Shown piece by piece: positions 1,185-11,948 of a stretch of 23,897 nt of DNA. The translations under genes and the position numbers were made by a program. Below the pieces are notes generated by a model. It was not told the origin of the DNA, did not search any database, and saw nothing but the letters and a program-made list of their open reading frames with translations. The stretch's first letter is position 1; every line of letters begins with the position of its first letter. Origin of the DNA: a virus; the IMG/VR virus record IMGVR_UViG_3300025102_000289, positions 1-23,897 of that record; one strand, given 5' to 3'.

Positions 1185-1493
1185 TTATGACCTAGCTTCT
1201 ACCCAAGCGTTAACCATTGCCGTGACTTCTGCATTAGTCATGTTTGACATTGTGCCGTCATCAGCGGATTTTTGAAACTTATTAGCAGCGTGCATTGCTA
1301 AAACTCTTGTATTCAATTCTGTCGGAGTCATAGTCGTAACTGTATCAGGCACGTAATACTCTCTGTCAGCTTCATCTGGAGACCAACCTATTTTAGTATT
1401 TGTAGCATCATCTTGGAAATAACCACCGTCTTCTATCCACTCTGGCGTTCTCATTCCACCAGCGGTCATGTGCATTTTATATTCTATAATCAT
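1185..1493 (-). CDS. Hypothetical protein, 102 aa
   Basis: I do not recognise this small soluble protein. It is rich in Asp, Glu, Met and Thr, has no membrane segment or signal peptide, and looks mostly helical in its C-terminal half (from about residue 55). Its ATG overlaps the stop of the upstream 272-aa gene by 4 nt (ATGA), a typical translationally coupled arrangement. The stop is followed after 3 nt by the start of the repeat protein at the left edge. Its place between fibre genes makes a structural or fibre-assembly role possible, but nothing in the sequence shows this. Confidence 0.7.
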   Translation of the reverse strand: MIIEYKMHMTAGGMRTPEWIEDGGYFQDDATNTKIGWSPDEADREYYVPDTVTTMTPTELNTRVLAMHAANKFQKSADDGTMSNMTNAEVTAMVNAWVEARS

Positions 1494-2308
1494 TTTTTTG
1501 ACTCCTTAGATTTTTCAAGTTGCAGCATATAGTCTGTATTTAAAAAGTCTGACTTTCCAAATATTCTCTTAGCGGTCACATCAGCATTTTTAAAATACTT
1601 GTCAGCCATTTTATCTAGAAATTCTTCCAGATCATTACTGTGCAAATTCTCTAGTTTTGCAATTCTATCAGCCGTAACTTTTATGTAGCCACTAACCTCA
1701 GTAAGTGCGAGTTGTGGATGAACTCCATATTGTTGCATATACTCAATCGTTGCTGTGGAAGCTCTGCCACCGTCCATTAGGTTACGATACATAAGCTCAA
1801 AGCCTCGACGAACATGATGCCGCTTTTCTTCTCTTTCAAAAGCCACCTCATCCCACTCGTCAATGCCGTAATTCTCTTTTATGTTTTCATAGCTATCTAT
1901 AAGAGTTGCAATGTCTTTGATTGAGCCATTAATCTTGTTTTCCATTTGAATTAAACTATGGCGTTTTTGTCTTAGCTTTGCTTCACTAACTGCATCGCTT
2001 GAACCTTCTAACTCCATAATCTCCATACGAACTTCAGCATGAGAAACCTGCGCTTCATTTAATGCGTTTTCTCGCTTCTCTACTTCAGCTGTTATTTGTC
2101 GCAACATTCGATATGGCGAGTGACCATTAAGCATAGTCAGCGTCATCATGTTTAATGTTGTTTGGCTGTTGTTACGATCAAATGCCCTAGTTGCTTTTGC
2201 AATCTCTGGCAACTTCTCAGCGACTTTTGCAGCCGCAACTTGATTAATATTTTTACTTGCCTCTACTGGCAAAGAAAAGGTTATCGGTTTTGTAATTACG
2301 TTTGTCAT
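1490..2308 (-). CDS. Hypothetical helical/coiled-coil phage protein, 272 aa
   Basis: The protein is strongly helical and charged, and the region at about residues 70-145 has heptad-like spacing consistent with a coiled coil. It has no signal peptide or transmembrane segment and no catalytic motif that I recognise. The start ATG 2308 is preceded by TTAGGA, which overlaps the stop codon of the last fibre gene. The 3' end overlaps the next gene by 4 nt. It contrasts with its neighbours, which are beta-rich, low-complexity fibres. A fibre chaperone, adaptor or minor virion protein is conceivable from context only. Confidence 0.75.
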   Translation of the reverse strand: MTNVITKPITFSLPVEASKNINQVAAAKVAEKLPEIAKATRAFDRNNSQTTLNMMTLTMLNGHSPYRMLRQITAEVEKRENALNEAQVSHAEVRMEIMELEGSSDAVSEAKLRQKRHSLIQMENKINGSIKDIATLIDSYENIKENYGIDEWDEVAFEREEKRHHVRRGFELMYRNLMDGGRASTATIEYMQQYGVHPQLALTEVSGYIKVTADRIAKLENLHSNDLEEFLDKMADKYFKNADVTAKRIFGKSDFLNTDYMLQLEKSKESKK

Positions 2309-2315
2309 TCTTTTT

Positions 2316-2321
2316 TCCTAA
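2316..2321 (-). promoter_or_regulatory. Stop/ribosome-binding-site overlap after third fibre gene
   Basis: The minus strand reads TTAGGA. The TAG inside it is the stop codon of the third fibre, and TAGGA is the Shine-Dalgarno for the ATG at 2308. This suggests coupled translation and matches the junctions after the other two fibres. Confidence 0.6.
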
Positions 2322-3445
2322 GAAGCATTTCCTGAGTTAGCGCAACAGTCTATACTATCTCCTAAAAGATCGCCAAAGTCTGTAGCATTGCTTGGGGTTG
2401 CTATTGTTACATATTGAATAGTGTTGGACACATTAGCACCTCCACCAGCAGAAACAGTCATCCTTTCTTGATTACAACAAGATGTATGACCGTTATTTGC
2501 GGCATCTAGATCGCCAAAGTCAGTTGCGTTACTAGGGGTGGCAACAGTAATGTACTCGATAGTGTTCACATTAGTACCTGCACTTTGACCACCTGCAAAT
2601 ACACCATAAGTTATGTTTGCACTCCCACAAAAATTTTGCCGTGTCGAGGTTAAATCTCCAAAGTCTGAACCATTTGCAGAAGTATCATAGGTAATTTTTT
2701 CTATTGTGTTTACTGTAGCACTTGAGGAGTTTGTAGATGTACCACCGGCCTTAATAAAAGTTGTTTTATCTGATAAGCCACAAGGAGTTATTACTGCAAC
2801 ACTCATAGTATAGCCAAAATCTGTTGCATTACCTGCTGTTGCTATTGTTACTTTATCAATAATAGAAGGGCTGAAAATAAGGTTGTTACTACCATCTCTA
2901 TAACGTGTGAGGTTCATAAGACCAATTGTTCCATTAGAACCTGCTGCAAAATTCTCAATTGTATGAGTCAAATCGCCAAAGTCTGCTGCACTACCAGTTG
3001 TTGCAAAGGTAATGTGGTTAAGGGTTACACTTTCCCCTATGCCATAAATGCCACGCGTTATATTTGATAAATTACCGTTTTGATAACTTCTACCATTAGA
3101 TAATAAATCGCCAAAGTCTACTGCATTTCCTGCTGTTGGGATTGCAAAATAGTCCAAACTACTTTGAGCTAAACCTCCTGTGGTATAACCTCTGTGATGT
3201 ACTCCCCTATCGCCACCATTACTTAGAGTAACGTTTACTGAAATACTTTTAAACTCACCATTCATATATTGATAAATAACTTTGTTAGTACTGTCGTACC
3301 AAATATCCCCTGCGCTTGGAGAAGAGGGCTCTGTACCGCTTGAAGTGTAGGCTTGCTCAATAGAGTTACCGCCAATCTTTAGCTTATTAGGAAAGTCTAC
3401 ATTTGAGCCGCTATTATCAATCGTGTTTACTTTTATTGTACTCAT
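2318..3445 (-). CDS. Tail fibre with six GNATDFG-type repeats (paralogue 3), 375 aa
   Basis: This is the third of three tandem paralogues. The short N-terminal region (about residues 1-30) resembles that of the other two. A shared EPSSP..GD.WYD module follows (about 39-68) and probably attaches the repeats to the virion. From residue 77 (NGGDRG) there are six repeats of 45-54 residues, marked by GNAVDFG, GSAADFG, GNATDFG, NGSDFG, SNATDFG and SNATDFG near residues 106, 151, 205, 257, 305 and 352. The protein ends in a half-unit, SGNAS. Repeats of this size with a GG turn and an aromatic/Ile strand look like kelch- or RCC1-type propeller blades, so a six-bladed beta-propeller is inferred. Paired cysteines occur at 323-324 and 367-368. 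A good Shine-Dalgarno (AGGAG) precedes ATG 3445. The likely role is receptor binding or a virion surface decoration. Confidence 0.75.
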   Translation of the reverse strand: MSTIKVNTIDNSGSNVDFPNKLKIGGNSIEQAYTSSGTEPSSPSAGDIWYDSTNKVIYQYMNGEFKSISVNVTLSNGGDRGVHHRGYTTGGLAQSSLDYFAIPTAGNAVDFGDLLSNGRSYQNGNLSNITRGIYGIGESVTLNHITFATTGSAADFGDLTHTIENFAAGSNGTIGLMNLTRYRDGSNNLIFSPSIIDKVTIATAGNATDFGYTMSVAVITPCGLSDKTTFIKAGGTSTNSSSATVNTIEKITYDTSANGSDFGDLTSTRQNFCGSANITYGVFAGGQSAGTNVNTIEYITVATPSNATDFGDLDAANNGHTSCCNQERMTVSAGGGANVSNTIQYVTIATPSNATDFGDLLGDSIDCCANSGNAS

Positions 3446-3450
3446 TTTAT

Positions 3451-3458
3451 TCTCCTAA
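3451..3458 (-). promoter_or_regulatory. Stop/ribosome-binding-site overlap between fibres 2 and 3
   Basis: The minus strand reads TTAGGAGA. TAG is the stop of fibre 2, and TAGGAG serves as the Shine-Dalgarno for fibre 3 (ATG at 3445). Confidence 0.6.
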
Positions 3459-4594
3459 GTTCCACTGGCTGAGTCACCACTTTGCGTCTGGTCTAATAAG
3501 TTACCAAAATCAGCGGCATTTCCTAAAGTATTAATATCTACATATTCAATCTCTTCCGCACTGTGAGGCGCACCAGTGAGCTGACCCCCAGAAATACAAG
3601 CTCTACCTGCTATATTTGCACACATACTTGTATCGTATTTTACAACGGAGAGATCACCAAAGTCAGTTGCGTTACCTGCTGTGCCAATGGTGATGTATGA
3701 TAATTCATTCACAGAAGCATAAACATTTGTTCCTTTGTGTATAAGTCCACGAACATTTTCGCTTGTTCCTGATCCGTAATAAGCAGTTGTATTTAAGTCT
3801 CCAAAGTCCGTTGCGTTAGCAGCAGTTGCAATTCCAACTTGATCTATGACGTTTGTAGTTTGTGGTGATCCACTTCCCATACCACCAAAGAATATACCAT
3901 TAGTGCCGTTTGATATATTACCACCTATATAATTCCTAGCTACTGTAAGATCACCATGATCAGTTGCATTTGATGCAGAAGAAGTTGTAAACCTATCTAT
4001 TGAATTTGACCTACTAGCTTGTCTGTCACTAGCAGCAGCAAGGGCAATAGTTCCGTCACAATTACCTGCTCCATAAGCTGAGTTTTCTATAAGATCACCA
4101 TGATCAGTTGCGTTGCCTGTTGTTGCAACAACAATCGCGTCAATGTGCTTATAACTGTGTGGTACGCCTCCCATAGTAAAGGCTCTTGTTCCATCGCTTG
4201 TTGCCGAATGGTGTCTATTAGCAATAGTAAGATCACCGAAGTCAGTAGCATTCCCTGTGCTTGCCATAGACCAATATTGAATGACATTCATAACCGCGCC
4301 AGTGGTTCTTCCATAACCACCCATATATAAGCCCCTATCACCACCATCAACTAATGTTGCTGCATTGCTGTGAGTGATCTGCTTAAACGCACCGTCAGCA
4401 TAAATATAATATTTATCGTTTGCTGTGTCGTACCAAGTGTCACCGTTTGCAGGTGACGATGGTTCTGTACCTGACGCTGTATAAGCTTTACCGATTAAGC
4501 CGCTATCTGAGCCGCCTATATTCACCCCGTATGTAAAATTAGGAGCGCCAGTACCTGCACGATCTGTAATTTTTTTTGTATCAAATTCTGACAT
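3455..4594 (-). CDS. Tail fibre with six GNATDFG-type repeats (paralogue 2), 379 aa
   Basis: I take ATG 4594 (MSEFDTKKIT) as the start because TTAGGAGA lies just upstream and the resulting N-terminus aligns with the other two fibres. An upstream in-frame start at 4642 would overlap the previous gene by 38 nt. The EPSSP..GDTWYDTAN module lies at about residues 44-72. Six repeats follow, marked at residues 114, 160, 208, 259, 307 and 358; two of the units read DHGDL instead of DFGDL. The C-terminus (SGDSASGT) is a half-unit that could close a ring with the first strand, as in velcro-closed propellers. The propeller fold and receptor-binding role are inferred. Confidence 0.75.
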   Translation of the reverse strand: MSEFDTKKITDRAGTGAPNFTYGVNIGGSDSGLIGKAYTASGTEPSSPANGDTWYDTANDKYYIYADGAFKQITHSNAATLVDGGDRGLYMGGYGRTTGAVMNVIQYWSMASTGNATDFGDLTIANRHHSATSDGTRAFTMGGVPHSYKHIDAIVVATTGNATDHGDLIENSAYGAGNCDGTIALAAASDRQASRSNSIDRFTTSSASNATDHGDLTVARNYIGGNISNGTNGIFFGGMGSGSPQTTNVIDQVGIATAANATDFGDLNTTAYYGSGTSENVRGLIHKGTNVYASVNELSYITIGTAGNATDFGDLSVVKYDTSMCANIAGRACISGGQLTGAPHSAEEIEYVDINTLGNAADFGNLLDQTQSGDSASGT

Positions 4595-4600
4595 TATTTT

Positions 4601-4608
4601 TCTCCTAA
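4601..4608 (-). promoter_or_regulatory. Stop/ribosome-binding-site overlap between fibres 1 and 2
   Basis: The minus strand reads TTAGGAGA. TAG (4605-4607) terminates fibre 1, and the overlapping TAGGAG is the Shine-Dalgarno that decides the start of fibre 2 at 4594 rather than at 4642. Confidence 0.6.
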
Positions 4609-5705
4609 GAAGCGTTCCCTGATGCAGAACCCCTGTGTTCACTATTTACTGTGCAATCACCAAAATCTGTAGCGTTCCCTGCTGTTGCAGTAGAGAACCT
4701 CTCAATATTGTCTGATAGCGTGCCATTAATACTAGAGGCTACAACACAAGCATAAGTTCCATCGCAACAAGCATCGCAACCATAAATATCTGTAGCCAGA
4801 TCACCGAAGTCGGTAGCATTGCCAAGGGTTTGTATAGTGACTTGATGTATTTCACCTTTCATACTTTGGCTATGACCTGCAATATGAAAACCAGTAACCG
4901 AATCCGCTGTTGCCCCTGTGTATGAAACGCCACTATAAATTGTATCCCCAAAGTCTGTTGCATTGCCTGTTGTCTGTATGGTGATGTATTCAATCACATT
5001 GGTGTTTTGACCGCCAAAAGTTAGACCTCGTGTTGCGTCAGCACATGAGGATCTGTAAGCTTTTGAAACTGTCTGATTACCAAAATTTGTAGCATTACCC
5101 GTTGTGGCTATAGTGATGTATTCCATCTTGTCACTATCTTCATAGTCTGAAATACCACAAATAAAGACGCCTCTAGTCCCATCACCACAAGCAGAAGGTG
5201 CTTTTTGGTCACTGTTTGCCATAGAGCCAAAGTTAGTAGCGTTGCCTGTTGTTGCGCAAGTTATATAATCATACTGCTCTGTCCAACTACCTGCACCACT
5301 CATTACGATTCTAGCTAAGTTGCTAACCCCTGCGGAAAGACCTGACCCTGAGTTAGTCATATTTCCAAAATCGGTTGCGTTACCTGCGTTTTGAATATCA
5401 AAGTATTCTATGACATTTGTATTATCACCACCAAAAGCAAAACCCCTCGTGCCGCCATTAAGTATTGCACTAGAAACGCCTATCGTTTCTTGCCACTCAC
5501 CTCCAACATAAAGAAATATCTTTTCGTTTGCTGTATCCCACCAGATTGAGCCGTTTTTCGGAGAGCTAGGCTCACTAGAACTTGCGGTATACTCATTAAG
5601 ATTTAGCGTAGAAAGTGCCGCGCCATTTACAGTTACACCAGTACTAAAATTAGGTTTGCCAGTACCTGCTAAATCTACGACTGTATCAACTTTTATTTCT
5701 GTCAT
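4605..5705 (-). CDS. Tail fibre with six GNATDFG-type repeats (paralogue 1), 366 aa
   Basis: This is the first of the three paralogous fibres. The N-terminal leader is at about residues 1-38, and the EPSSP..GSIWWDTAN module at about 45-72. Six repeats follow, with GNAT(D/N)FG at residues 108, 154, 203, 247, 295 and 343. Spacings of 44-49 make this the most regular of the three. Each unit has the form TRG..FGG...NVIEYI.I.TTGNATDFG, resembling a kelch/RCC1 blade. Cysteines cluster in the inter-strand loops (173, 221, 310, 313-314, 320). The start overlaps the upstream stop by one base (TAATG). A six-bladed beta-propeller and a role in host recognition are inferred from repeat geometry and position. 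Confidence 0.75.
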   Translation of the reverse strand: MTEIKVDTVVDLAGTGKPNFSTGVTVNGAALSTLNLNEYTASSSEPSSPKNGSIWWDTANEKIFLYVGGEWQETIGVSSAILNGGTRGFAFGGDNTNVIEYFDIQNAGNATDFGNMTNSGSGLSAGVSNLARIVMSGAGSWTEQYDYITCATTGNATNFGSMANSDQKAPSACGDGTRGVFICGISDYEDSDKMEYITIATTGNATNFGNQTVSKAYRSSCADATRGLTFGGQNTNVIEYITIQTTGNATDFGDTIYSGVSYTGATADSVTGFHIAGHSQSMKGEIHQVTIQTLGNATDFGDLATDIYGCDACCDGTYACVVASSINGTLSDNIERFSTATAGNATDFGDCTVNSEHRGSASGNAS

Positions 5706-6820
5706 TATATTACCGCGTATCGCGCCCCACTGCTAATTGTTAAAGTTACACCGCTTGCAATGCTTACTGGTCCGACGGAAAATCCATTGTCAGTCGCTGC
5801 TATAGTAGTATTAGAGCTAATCGTTTGAGAGTGTGTATTAACAGGATCAAGACCAGAGCTACCTGCATTGTCAGCAGCCCAACTTAAATTTCCTGACCCA
5901 TCCGTTTTCAACACATAATTTGCAGTGCCGTCAGACGTAGGCCAAGATAAACCATCTAGTACAATCTTACCTGATCCGTTTGGTGTAATCGCAATGTTTC
6001 CGTTAGATGCGGAGACGATAGCGTTTCCATTTACATCAAGCGATCCTCCTAATTGCGGAGTCGAGTCAGCCAAAACACTCGCAATACCGCCTGATCCAGA
6101 TTGATCATCTGCCCAAGCATAATCGCTACCATTCCAACTTAATATTTGCCCTGAGCTTGCACCGCTTACATTTAGGTGAGTATTTACATCAGCGTCTGTA
6201 TAACTTGCATTATCCACCCACGCATAATCTGATCCGTTCCACGAAAGAACATATCCGCTAGTAGGGTTAGATTGGTTTAGGTGAGTATTAACATCAGCGT
6301 CTGTATAACCAGCATTATCTACCCAAGCATAGTCTGATCCGTTCCACGAAAGAACATATCCACTTGTAGGGTTAGATTGATTTAGGTGACTGTCAACATC
6401 ACTGTCACCATATGCGCTTACTGGTGCTGTCTCTGCACCAGCGCCCATACCGCTGTGATTGCCGCAATAATAATATAGTTGATCTGGCGCGTCTTGTTGA
6501 AACTGTACCTCTACATATGCCCCTGCGCTACCTGCTGTTCCTGATGTTGTTACACCAGTTGTATACGCTGACCCACCGCCATGAGTACCATCGGAAGTTG
6601 TGCTAAACCTCAATGGGTGATTACTCATTGAACTATCGCTTACATCAAATCTATATTTGACGCCTTTAGGAATAAACATATCCTGTTGTGCTGTTCCATC
6701 AATATGGTACTTATTACTTCCTCCAACGGACGCAACTGTAACAATAACTGCAATTCCCTTTAGACTACCATCCGTTTGAACATCTTTTGCGAAAGTTGCT
6801 AAATTTCTGTTTATACTCAT
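5705..6820 (-). CDS. Virion protein with cupredoxin-like domain and 35-residue repeats, 371 aa
   Basis: Three regions are visible. Residues about 30-133 look like a cupredoxin: a strand-rich stretch, then FDVSDSSMSNHPLRFS with His68, then LYYYCGNHSGMG with Cys119, His122 and Met125. The His...Cys-x2-His-x2-Met order and spacing match the type 1 copper site of amicyanin. Residues 139-243 are three units of 35 residues (D.DVN.HLNQSNPTSGYVL), typical of phage fibre stalks. The C-terminal part (about 250-371) has repeated G.A, NG and TDGSGNLSW motifs common in fibre proteins. The start ATG 6820 has AAGGA 7 nt upstream. The gene lies directly before the three fibres, so a structural role is likely. 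Whether the domain binds copper is an inference from the residues. Confidence 0.75.
   Translation of the reverse strand: MSINRNLATFAKDVQTDGSLKGIAVIVTVASVGGSNKYHIDGTAQQDMFIPKGVKYRFDVSDSSMSNHPLRFSTTSDGTHGGGSAYTTGVTTSGTAGSAGAYVEVQFQQDAPDQLYYYCGNHSGMGAGAETAPVSAYGDSDVDSHLNQSNPTSGYVLSWNGSDYAWVDNAGYTDADVNTHLNQSNPTSGYVLSWNGSDYAWVDNASYTDADVNTHLNVSGASSGQILSWNGSDYAWADDQSGSGGIASVLADSTPQLGGSLDVNGNAIVSASNGNIAITPNGSGKIVLDGLSWPTSDGTANYVLKTDGSGNLSWAADNAGSSGLDPVNTHSQTISSNTTIAATDNGFSVGPVSIASGVTLTISSGARYAVI
6092..6406 (-). repeat. Three 105-bp (35-codon) direct repeats
   Basis: The repeats lie within the cupredoxin-like protein. The first two units are nearly identical at DNA level (both contain gatccgttccacgaaagaac), while the third has diverged. 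Successive His codons of the DVN.HLN motif (residues 145, 180 and 215) are exactly 35 codons apart. Confidence 0.8.
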
Positions 6821-8091: not shown

Positions 8092-8478
8092 TTATGGCAA
8101 GGTAGGCCATACGGGGTTGAGAGGATCAAAGCCGTCAGCTTGCGGCATATCCCTCAAAATCTGTCTTAGTGTGAGATAATTTTGTTTGTCAGTTTCAGAT
8201 AACGGACTGTCTAAAGTTTGCGTCCAATCGGTTGCTGCTAAACGTTTGTTACGCTCTTCTCTAAATTCTTCTAAAGCTTGTTCGTTTGCTTGCGTAGACG
8301 TTTGAGGTACTGATACCCCGTCTACAACATAAGCATAATCTACGCCCTCATGATCTTCTGGCGCTTGCAAAATTGCATGAGTATCACCGTTTTCATCTGC
8401 CAGTTGTTGCGCTTCAGCTTCTGTAGAAAGCTTACAATTTATAAACCCGTCAGCAACTGTGTATACAAAATAGCTCAT
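8092..8478 (-). CDS. Tail fibre assembly chaperone-like protein, 128 aa
   Basis: I chose ATG 8478 (MSYFVYTVAD) because its ATGA overlaps the gpJ-like stop by 4 nt. A longer in-frame start at 8595 would overlap gpJ by 121 nt with no gain in homology. The C-terminal segment (about residues 73-113) runs REERNKRLAATDWTQ, then D.PLS, then a YLTLRQILRDMPQ helix. This is the signature of the phage tail assembly chaperone family Phage_tail_APC (PF16778) and related XkdW-like proteins. The N-terminal half is a small alpha/beta region of unknown role. It probably assists assembly of the adjacent tail tip or fibres, without certainty about which partner. Confidence 0.7.
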   Translation of the reverse strand: MSYFVYTVADGFINCKLSTEAEAQQLADENGDTHAILQAPEDHEGVDYAYVVDGVSVPQTSTQANEQALEEFREERNKRLAATDWTQTLDSPLSETDKQNYLTLRQILRDMPQADGFDPLNPVWPTLP

Positions 8479-11400
8479 GACGTTATCGCTATGCACATGA
8501 GATTTCCAATAAAGGTGGCTCTTGTTGTAGATGAAAAAGTAAGGCTTACGCTTTGTGACGTTCCTGATGATGCAATAGGTATAAAACCAGTACAATTATA
8601 CACGTTATTAGAGAGTAACTGAGTACGACCCATAACTTGAATAGTTGTACCTCCTGACACTATATTTACAAAAGCTGCTTTTGAACTTGTTGTTGATCTT
8701 TTAACGCCACCAGTAAAACCAATTAAAACCTTTGATCCTGAGCGTAATCCAGAAAAAGTGGCTGACCCTGCTGTGCCAGATAAATTAGAATTTTGACCAC
8801 CCCCAGTAGAATAATTTACTGCTGATGTTTGTACTGAAGCAATACCTGACCCAATAAAAACATCCGCAGTTATTGTGCCACCTGTAATTTGGTTCGCACT
8901 AATATTAATTGCAGCTAGATAACTGGTTGCGATTGAATACGCTTGAATAGATATTAAATTCCAACCGTTGTTTAACCAATAATAGTATGATTGAGTAGGT
9001 GTGTAATACCAAAGGTCATAGTCGTTAGGTGTACCAGCTGGGCCGGATGATCCAACATGCACACTATTTTTTGAGTTTAGTGCTGTAGTAGTTGCAAATC
9101 CTGACGTACCACTTGCGACAGCACTTGAAACTTGTGAGGCTGTTTGAAACCCCTCATCATTGTTTAAGTCACTTGTATTAGTAGGAATAGTTGGTGTGTT
9201 ACTTAAATTGCTAAAACTTCCTGTTGTTGCAACTGTAGCTAAACCTGCAACATCACCAGCTGCTATATTACTTTGTGTTGCAAGTGAACCTAAACCAGAA
9301 ACATCTGAAGCGGCTACTGAGTTCTGTGTCGCTAGTGACCCTAAATCAGTAATTTTATTAGCTGTTAAATCAGGTATACGACCAACTGCTAACGTACCGC
9401 GAATAGCAGCCGCTTGAAACTCCGCTGTTCCATCATTCTTAATTTGCCAACCTTGATTACCTGTTTGAAAGTTAGAACTTTCGATAGTGTCTGTAATTTG
9501 AAAAGCACCATTAGCTGTGCCGTATTTTATAGAAGTAACAGTACCGCTAACATTTGCTTCAACAGTATATGGAACAGTCCATTCTTTTTCTACAAAACTT
9601 GTATTGCTTACAGTAGTTTGGCTGTGTGACCATCCAGTAGGAGGTGTACTAAATGATGCACTTGTAACACTAAAAGTACCAGTGTCGTTTGTTGGTGCGC
9701 TAGGTGCAGTTGCTTGTAGTGTTGTATAATATAAAATCCCAGAATAAACGCTTGTATCTGTATCAACACCACTAGAAGTTGCATCAGTAGTTGCGTTCTC
9801 AGAACTACTAGCTGCACTTTCATTTCCAGAAAAATCAACCGCTGTAACCCAATAATAATATTGTGTGCTTACTGCTAGTGCAGCATCTACAAATTTGTCA
9901 GACCCACTAAAAGCAATTGGATTAGCTGGCTGTGAATCAGTTGTGGCTCTATAAATATTATAGCCTTTTAAATCATACAGTGTTCCTCCACCGACTTGTG
10001 TTGTCGGAGCAGTCCAATCTAAAGTAATTTGTTTCTGTCCACCAGTAGCACTGAACCCAGAAACACCGCTAGGAGCAGTTGTATCACCGCCTACAGTATA
10101 CGCTGACGCTGCTACCCAAGAACCTACATTACCTTTAACACCTACGCCTCTCACTCTAACATTGTACTGAGCGCCACTTTCTAAGGGACTTATATTAGCA
10201 GCTGTGTCAGACGCTGGTATTTCTGTCCTAAAGTAATTACTGTCTGTAGTTTTTTTCCATTCAATTTCATAGTGATTTAAAAATTTACTTGCTGCTGCTG
10301 TCCAGCTAACTCGCGCTTGTGTTACAAAAGTTCCGTCTAATTGCACTGCACCAATGTCGGTCACTGAAACACTACTTGGGCTTAGACCTGCTCTAATATC
10401 TGTAAGTGTAGAATTGTTACTTAGTATCTCGCTTTCTTCAGCTGACCAACTAAAAGCAGCTGAAGATGTTTCTCGAAGTGTTAAGCTTACACTAAGTTCA
10501 CCGCTGGAACTACTATTAGAAAACTTCCAGCCAACTACCTCAAATTCTTTTGCAGACCAACCGTAGCGGCTAGTTGTTATTCCTACAATGTCACCGACTT
10601 GAACATTAAACGCATCTAAACCAAAATCAGCTGTGAGCGTCATACTCTCACGCGCTCTAAACAAAGTCATTTTTGCTAGGCGCTGTGCCATTGCGCTAGA
10701 CGTTGTATAGGGTAGGGCTAAGTCTATGGCACTCTCAACACCAGCGTCGTTTGCAATAAAAGTAGCGCTTCTAATTTCGGGATAGTCAGTCCGTATGTAA
10801 TCGTCAGCAGCAGAGTTAAACATACCGCGCACAATATTAAAGGTATCGCGTCTACTAGGTTTTGTTTCAACATTAATGCCAGATCTAAAATCGTCTAAGG
10901 TAAATGTCTTTATAGCTGCTGTGTATTCTCCTACTTTTAATTGCCAATTACCCTGACCCCAAAAAAGGGTAGCAGCGCAAGAAGTCATCATATCGCCCAA
11001 AATATCAGACGGGCTTCTGTCTAAACTTACGACACCGTTTAGCTCATATCTTTTTTCAGTGCCGCCACCAGCTAAGGTAACAGTTTCATCACATGCGTTA
11101 GCAGCTGCTGAAAATACGGTATCGTTTGTAACTCCCGTATTATCAACACCGTAAGCGCTCGTGAGATAATCACGAATACATAAAGCAGCATTAGCTGAAT
11201 AAGCAGTGCTGGATGATCTAGGATCATAAACCTTTTTACCCTGCACTATTGCAGTAAATAAGGGTATCCCTTCAGCAAAAACATTTTGGTCATATTCCAT
11301 CCTCACATAGAGGCAAGCAATCCCTTCACCTTTAAAGTTAGTATCTTCACTACTGCTAGGAGCAACCCCGTCTATCTTCCACTCAGGGGGATCATCAATC

Positions 11401-11948
11401 CCGTTTAGTTGGCTATATACATTTTGATTATCAGCGCCCGTAAACTTTCGGATATATATTTTTGCGTTACTGCTATCGTCTTTCCAACGTGCATCAGAAA
11501 CAAAATAATCTGCTCCAATTGTTACGGTAGTGTCATTAATGTAGACGTTACCTATGTCATTTACTTCATGTCCAGCCAGCACAATAATCTGATGTAAAAA
11601 CTTATTAGTGTCACCAGTGCTTTCGATGTATGTAACAACACCGCCTTTTCTTATAGTGCCGTAGACAATTTCTTGAGGCGCTGTTGCTGTCCTAGTGTTT
11701 GCTAATAATCCAGAGCTAGTACCAAATGCACCAAAATCAGGCTTAGGCATTAGAGCTTTTATTGCCCAGCTGCTGATTGCTGCTATCGCTAGATAGTTTA
11801 TAGCTTTGGTGATAAATATTTGCGTAGCCGTAGCACTCGCTAATATATTTCCACCGAATAAAATAAAGGGATCTCTAGGTATTCTTTCCCAGCTGTTAAG
11901 GCTGACCAATCTGTAATTGTAAAGACTGTCTTTCACGCTAGCACCCAA
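8475..11948 (-). CDS. gpJ-like tail tip/host specificity protein with two FN3 domains, about 1157 aa
   Basis: This is the largest gene here and forms the tip of the tail that contacts the host. Residues 45-66 are hydrophobic, as in many gpJ/GTA gp15-like proteins. Residues about 85-500 contain the conserved hub region, including YGTIRKGG, VLAGHEV, NGVVSLDRSP..ILGDM and GDIVGITTSRYGW. Two fibronectin type III domains follow (about 535-620 and 625-720), each with W and Y core residues. GWQIKNDGTAEFQAAAIRG (833-851) resembles the DUF1983-like stretch of lambda gpJ. Short SLATQ..VA repeats and a Gly/Ser-rich beta C-terminus end the protein. The start is uncertain. TTG 11948 overlaps the preceding gene by 16 nt, whereas GTG 11936 overlaps it by 4 nt (GTGA) and costs only four residues. 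Confidence 0.85.
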   Translation of the reverse strand: MGASVKDSLYNYRLVSLNSWERIPRDPFILFGGNILASATATQIFITKAINYLAIAAISSWAIKALMPKPDFGAFGTSSGLLANTRTATAPQEIVYGTIRKGGVVTYIESTGDTNKFLHQIIVLAGHEVNDIGNVYINDTTVTIGADYFVSDARWKDDSSNAKIYIRKFTGADNQNVYSQLNGIDDPPEWKIDGVAPSSSEDTNFKGEGIACLYVRMEYDQNVFAEGIPLFTAIVQGKKVYDPRSSSTAYSANAALCIRDYLTSAYGVDNTGVTNDTVFSAAANACDETVTLAGGGTEKRYELNGVVSLDRSPSDILGDMMTSCAATLFWGQGNWQLKVGEYTAAIKTFTLDDFRSGINVETKPSRRDTFNIVRGMFNSAADDYIRTDYPEIRSATFIANDAGVESAIDLALPYTTSSAMAQRLAKMTLFRARESMTLTADFGLDAFNVQVGDIVGITTSRYGWSAKEFEVVGWKFSNSSSSGELSVSLTLRETSSAAFSWSAEESEILSNNSTLTDIRAGLSPSSVSVTDIGAVQLDGTFVTQARVSWTAAASKFLNHYEIEWKKTTDSNYFRTEIPASDTAANISPLESGAQYNVRVRGVGVKGNVGSWVAASAYTVGGDTTAPSGVSGFSATGGQKQITLDWTAPTTQVGGGTLYDLKGYNIYRATTDSQPANPIAFSGSDKFVDAALAVSTQYYYWVTAVDFSGNESAASSSENATTDATSSGVDTDTSVYSGILYYTTLQATAPSAPTNDTGTFSVTSASFSTPPTGWSHSQTTVSNTSFVEKEWTVPYTVEANVSGTVTSIKYGTANGAFQITDTIESSNFQTGNQGWQIKNDGTAEFQAAAIRGTLAVGRIPDLTANKITDLGSLATQNSVAASDVSGLGSLATQSNIAAGDVAGLATVATTGSFSNLSNTPTIPTNTSDLNNDEGFQTASQVSSAVASGTSGFATTTALNSKNSVHVGSSGPAGTPNDYDLWYYTPTQSYYYWLNNGWNLISIQAYSIATSYLAAINISANQITGGTITADVFIGSGIASVQTSAVNYSTGGGQNSNLSGTAGSATFSGLRSGSKVLIGFTGGVKRSTTSSKAAFVNIVSGGTTIQVMGRTQLLSNNVYNCTGFIPIASSGTSQSVSLTFSSTTRATFIGNLMCIAITS

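Follow-up and report, generated by a model that had tools for sequence, protein, structure and literature searches.

The virus record IMGVR_UViG_3300025102_000289 of the IMG/VR database was analysed over positions 1 to 23,897 (23,897 nucleotides, hereafter the window). It carries three tandem genes, A, B and C, which encode diverged proteins with six related repeats each. Why are three versions of such a gene kept side by side, and why is the number of repeats six in every one of them? Our best explanation is that A, B and C are probably receptor-binding tail adhesins of a marine siphovirus, in which three position-specific leaders carry exchangeable six-bladed Kelch-type heads. The evidence comprises the fold of A, the fixed number of blades, the ordered leader classes, the turnover and swapping of heads, and the variable loops, all of which were computed here. 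It suggests that the locus supplies three host-recognition heads as a ready-made set, each of them exchangeable.

Fold and repeat number of the three proteins

Genes A (4605-5705), B (3455-4594) and C (2318-3445) are tandem open reading frames (ORFs), all on the (-) strand. Motif scans detected six units of the GNATDFG type in each of them. The units are 44-54 amino acids (aa) long, with spacings of 46/49/44/48/48 in A, 46/48/51/48/51 in B and 45/54/52/48/47 in C. A repeat hidden Markov model (HMM) trained on the family, using 671 distinct units (consensus DLTVARYGLAGCSNSTRGVFAGG...NVIDYVTIATTGNATDFG), also recognized six units in each protein. Coordinates, motif scans and the repeat HMM thus agree with the first-pass annotation of this DNA, which had described three tandem paralogues with six repeats each. 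The three proteins are paralogues with 35-38% pairwise identity across nearly their full length (full-length identity to A: 36% for B and 35% for C). They have in common an N-terminal leader of about 35 aa, a module with the motif EPSSP..W[WY]D, and a stretch of 15-17 residues between the last motif and the C-terminus. The shared leader and module were correctly described in the first-pass annotation; the supposed C-terminal half unit amounts to no more than roughly one third of a repeat, with one strand in the model of A, and the word "fibre" was loosely used for what is in each case a short leader followed by a globular head.

In gene A, the leader is of the class we call alpha (aa 1-38; 5592..5705; alpha leader HMM, 136 bits at residue 1) and is followed by an EPSSP..WWD beta module (aa 39-75; 5481..5591) and by the head (aa 85-366 and the stop codon; 4605..5453). 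Gene B encodes a leader of class beta (aa 1-36; 4487..4594; beta leader HMM, 134 bits), an EPSSP..WYD module located by alignment (aa 37-73; 4376..4486), and a head of six HMM units plus closing strand, homologous to that of A (aa 86-379 and stop; 3455..4339). Gene C likewise encodes a leader of class gamma (aa 1-31; 3353..3445; gamma leader HMM, 125 bits), an aligned EPSSP..WYD module (aa 32-68; 3242..3352), and a head of six HMM units plus closing strand with homology to A (aa 79-375 and stop; 2318..3211). The leader homology of B starts at residue 17 of a long ORF that begins with GTG 4642. Therefore, the start codon of B should be better placed at ATG 4594, and with this start the apparent overlap between A and B vanishes. 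Scans for promoters and terminators yielded fewer sites here than in shuffled sequences and gave no sign of separate transcripts.

The structure of A was predicted with AlphaFold2, using an alignment of 67 sequences of relatives. The model has a mean predicted local distance difference test (pLDDT) score of 86, and most residues of the propeller (residues ~85-366) score above 90. In this monomer model, the leader is poorly defined (pLDDT 53-65) and the EPSSP module is well defined (pLDDT ~81-88; strands 39-42, 54-57, 62-67 and 70-75). The last strand (residues 359-363) is part of the C-terminal stretch, where velcro closure of a propeller would place it. The best matches of the model in the PDB, according to Foldseek, were six-bladed Kelch domains (Keap1 and KLHL proteins) and SAKe6 designs, with an E-value of 4.9e-14 for the Kelch domain of KLHL12 and template modelling scores (TMt) of about 0.8-0.87 for both groups. 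VIA-align gave a Z score of 34.3 and a root-mean-square deviation of 2.1 Å over 269 residues for SAKe6BE, and a Z score near 33 for Keap1. The prediction therefore supports a closed six-bladed Kelch-type propeller for the head of A, and the heads of B and C, judged by homology, probably adopt the same fold.

The unit consensus RGVFAGG contains a double glycine after strand B. The entropy at both glycines was near 0 in the parsed units, although the parser demanded a glycine and a small residue there. The Kelch consensus has a tryptophan where the units of A, B and C have the phenylalanine of DFG. None of A, B and C matched the Pfam Kelch models at their cut-offs, and Kelch_1 matched four of 67 family members, at an E-value of 0.034 only. 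A search of the family profile against PDB sequences found nothing. Because the sequence-based Kelch models miss their cut-offs, the heads are of a Kelch-like fold, outside Pfam Kelch membership.

To see how far the number six holds, units were counted automatically in 319 non-redundant complete homologue clusters from 183 sequences. Six units were present in 254 clusters, 12 in 36 and 18 in three; in most of the remaining 26, a unit had degenerated, the reading frame was shifted or the gene was split. In those examined, a long linker follows unit six in the 12-unit proteins, and units six and twelve in the 18-unit proteins. The repeat number is thus quantised at 6/12/18, and the six units of A, B and C are not due to chance. 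Free variation in homologues, set beforehand as the outcome that would speak against a closed ring, is excluded within the family. The first-pass proposal of a closed six-bladed propeller with velcro closure is supported by the model of A, its Foldseek and VIA-align matches to Kelch domains, and the 293 of 319 clusters with 6, 12 or 18 units.

In three lineages, one propeller gene is divided between two ORFs (L034:4940-6027, L036:5321-6408, L105:1644-2758 and L123:7126-8297; L numbers denote the loci of relatives). The split is a TAATG stop-start overlap inside a BC loop, it is identical in the two separate assemblies L034 and L036, and wherever both halves are present they total six units. 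Such genes may produce two-chain propellers through termination-reinitiation. A divergent relative with six units and a C-terminal half unit, preceded by a different, phage-fibre-like N-terminus, is encoded at L180:7443-8885, on a contig whose bin is assigned to a Thermoprotei archaeon.

Leader classes, arrays and exchange of heads

Unsupervised clustering separated the leaders of the marine family into three classes, alpha (that of A), beta (B) and gamma (C). According to the leader HMMs, the window has them in alpha-beta-gamma order, and so do L007, L008, L009, L011, L012 and L033. Among 73 complete non-redundant arrays, 39 consist of three genes. A geometric distribution of the same mean would give 10.7 such arrays and a truncated-Poisson distribution 16.8, although the shared ancestry of the arrays makes this comparison no more than indicative. 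One-gene (17/73) and two-gene (9/73) arrays were also found, and sizes of four and five occur. Leaders were clustered at three thresholds; at the finest, 36 of the 39 triples had each leader in a different cluster (19 and 29 of the 39 at the coarser ones). With few exceptions, a cluster is confined to one position in the array, and this applies to the marine family and likewise to a freshwater-type family whose leaders are unrelated. The complete arrays of six genes, four in number, all contain the classes in a 2:2:2 ratio (aabbgg in L016 and L097; aabgbg in L022 and L174). Unequal ratios were found in L031 (1:2:2), L024 (2:2:1) and the truncated array of L027 (1:3:2), and strict equality of the classes as a universal rule is ruled out by L031 and L024. 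To judge from the sequences, the ordered leader classes favour three distinct assembly slots.

Heads follow a different pattern from leaders. Pairs of proteins with leaders at least 80% identical have a median head identity of 46-48%. The best match of a leader in another array occupied the corresponding position in 309 of 459 comparisons, that of a head in 165 of 459 (36%; 33% expected by chance). For example, the beta protein of L021 and the alpha protein of L040 have heads that are 85% identical and leaders that are 41% identical. Among the close relatives of the window, flanking proteins of 237 and 272 aa are mostly 87-97% identical and leaders 73-96%, with heads usually at 35-54%; exceptions are the heads of A (93% identical in L007) and C (62% in L015). 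The type of head can change as well. In L012 (6001-9084), an alpha-beta-gamma triple of leaders carries three heads that are all five-repeat SGL/lactonase-like propellers, and in L021 only the gamma head has changed type, with a weak match to the SBBP repeat. A conserved N-terminal attachment region with an exchangeable, hypervariable C-terminal head, the organization of phage receptor-binding proteins, is what these comparisons show. The exchange of heads independently of leader class favours a role in receptor specificity. Of the two roles that the first-pass annotation had offered for the triple, a heteromeric tip or multiple receptor specificities, either may apply.

The variation within heads is concentrated on one face. 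In 45 close pairs, with residues classed by motif position rather than by coordinates, substitutions amounted to 34% for the DA loop and 30% for the BC loop, compared with 20% for the CD turn and strand A and 8-10% for the AB turn and the strands B, C and D. Nearly all within-blade gaps were in BC loops. It is known that the substrate surface of KLHL20 is formed by BC and DA loops (PMC6720452). This analysis points to one ligand-binding face per head, made of the BC and DA loops.

In the mechanism that we propose, each protein would begin with a short position-specific leader, continue with the small EPSSP..W[WY]D beta module and end in a closed six-bladed Kelch-type propeller head. The alpha, beta and gamma leaders would each dock at a slot of their own in the tail-tip or fibre complex that the neighbouring genes encode (J and the gene referred to below as U). 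The heads would serve as interchangeable recognition cassettes, with the face of BC and DA loops as the likely receptor-binding surface. We infer that A, B and C are present in the virion, that they bind the host surface, and that each leader class corresponds to a docking slot.

Gene neighbourhood and distribution

The window is the structural half of the genome of an HK97-type siphovirus. The gene order is terminases, portal, protease, major head protein, tail tube, tape measure, Dit, tail proteins, J, tail-fibre chaperone, gene U and A-B-C, which locates the array in the tail-tip/host-recognition module. The J-like central tail-tip protein (8475..11948, (-) strand), whose presence nearby places the array in this module, matched the PHROG central tail fiber J at 3.4e-70. 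It is closest to its counterparts in Roseobacter phages CRP-821 to CRP-823, with 49% identity to a tail protein of CRP-823. CRP-823 has a single tail-fibre gene of 587 aa where the window has U and A-B-C. The phage tail (fibre) assembly chaperone (8092..8595, (-) strand) was identified by PF16778 (1.4e-15).

Gene U (5705..6820, (-) strand) encodes an upstream tail-fibre protein with a cupredoxin-like domain followed by repeated modules (PHROG tail-fibre matches, 1e-17). It lies directly upstream of the alpha gene in related arrays and is 62-79% identical in the relatives with enough length to compare. Gene U encodes a candidate proximal partner. Inspection by eye of the cupredoxin-like domain shows residues that could plausibly form a type-1 copper ligand set (NHP...C..H...M). 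In L065:6986-8230 and L057:5806-7074, this domain occurs as a fusion with six-unit propellers, which ties the domain of gene U to the same structure. Directly downstream of C, a conserved gene of 272 aa (1490..2308, (-) strand; PHROG 1409, function unknown) is 88-97% identical in relatives with differing heads. Its product may be an assembly factor for the A-C set.

A tblastn search of the 50,697 phage records of INPHARED with A and C as queries gave no match, and with two other family members it gave only the weakly related cyanophage S-SKS1. This cultured phage (L184 and L185) encodes, in several tandem genes, a distant propeller-like repeat (YGYFGGG...NTIDRIDFSNETTSAPGNNL) with about nine units per ORF. 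Its repeat number was not used as a homologue count, as it belongs to another repeat family and the ORFs are apparently broken by frameshifts in the record. A scan of genome contigs yielded nine loci (seven in records titled as metagenome-assembled genomes, one in an Epulopiscium record and one in a Desulfobacter vibrioformis record), and gave no host assignment.

Alternative explanations and known systems

Two arrangements of the proteins would each realise the explanation given above. A, B and C may form three separate homo-oligomeric fibres with three docking sites and their own receptors, derived by tandem duplication and subsequent subfunctionalisation. We regard this as plausible, with a chance just short of even. 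The position-specific leader classes, the heads that vary and swap independently of one another, and the arrays of one, two, four and five genes are all in its favour, but by itself it predicts neither the sharp mode at three genes nor the balanced 2:2:2 composition of arrays with six genes. Both of these features speak for a single 1:1:1 heterotrimer of A, B and C presenting three propellers, a heteromeric version of the homotrimeric receptor-binding protein of phage phi11. So do the recurrence of three ordered leader classes in the freshwater-type family, the leaders being mutually paralogous and poorly ordered as monomers, and the joint replacement of all three heads in L012. However, the unequal arrays (L031, L024 and L027), the one-gene and two-gene arrays, the change of head type in gamma alone in L021, and the non-independence of array counts through shared ancestry stand against it, and we consider the heterotrimer possible but on balance improbable. 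A broader form of the idea is that a widespread class of adhesins consists of obligate alpha/beta/gamma heterotrimers, in which one fibre reads three receptors and is re-targeted by swapping a single head cassette. We put this forward only tentatively, as a conjecture a shade more doubtful still. If true, the usual homotrimer rule of phage fibres would be broken.

Propellers also occur in enzymes and at other positions of virions, and the heads might accordingly belong to a glycan-acting enzyme or a capsid decoration protein. This is unlikely, to judge from the loops, since an active site would be conserved whereas the BC/DA face is the most variable part, and from the location of A-C after J and the tail-fibre chaperone. 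An open-ended repeat fibre or solenoid, with six units by coincidence, would agree with the head-to-tail, degenerate repeats and with the nine or so units of the distant S-SKS1 protein. Nevertheless, we hold it to be extremely improbable in view of the quantised repeat number, the linkers after unit six in 12-unit proteins, and the closed model of A with its Z score of 34 to six-bladed Kelch folds.

Several points weigh against receptor-binding adhesins themselves: A, B and C are known here from their sequences and one predicted structure, the fold was modelled for A with B and C following by homology, the Pfam Kelch cut-offs are unmet, the leader of A is of low confidence in the monomer model, and the tail-tip location rests on synteny. 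If receptor-binding adhesins are nevertheless what A-C are, they would belong to a large aquatic family in which Kelch-type wheels, arranged in ordered sets of three, act as interchangeable recognition heads and vary mostly on the face with which eukaryotic Kelch domains bind their ligands. This provides a testable model for the diversification of recognition in uncultured marine phages, and the combination of leader class and six units would be a sequence signature for spotting such adhesins.

Literature searches on GNATDFG and on heterotrimeric paralogous phage fibres returned nothing relevant, and no description of ordered triples of propeller adhesins was found in a search of incomplete coverage. 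The same predicted fold is found in the uncultured phage proteins A0A6J7WZC1 (30% identical) and A0A6J5LLM0 (BFVD models) and in a Kelch-motif protein of BcepSaruman, which are listed as uncharacterised or named by motif only. Like the Kelch domains of Keap1, KLHL12 and KLHL20 and the SAKe6 designs, the heads have, as modelled for A, six four-stranded blades in a closed ring, together with a double glycine after strand B and a probable BC/DA ligand face. Identity in these structural matches is 9-14%, and the heads, unlike the Kelch domains of BTB-Kelch proteins, are preceded by a viral leader instead of BTB-BACK. Among phages, few solved structures of receptor-binding proteins contain propellers: the study of Staphylococcus aureus phage phi11 (2016) names only two further propellers in putative receptor-binding proteins, phiKZ gp131C with seven blades and PRD1 P2 with five distorted blades (PMC4901313). 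A-C differ from both in blade number and are unrelated to them in sequence, and ordered triples are not described in that study. The receptor-binding protein of phi11 itself, Gp45, is a siphovirus adhesin encoded by one gene, a homotrimer with a coiled-coil stem, a tower and a five-bladed propeller as recognition domain (PMC4901313). A-C differ from Gp45 in being three paralogous genes with a short leader and, as modelled by AlphaFold2 and compared by VIA-align for A, in having six blades rather than the five of the phi11 type. They would share with it the use of a beta-propeller as the recognition domain of a siphovirus adhesin.

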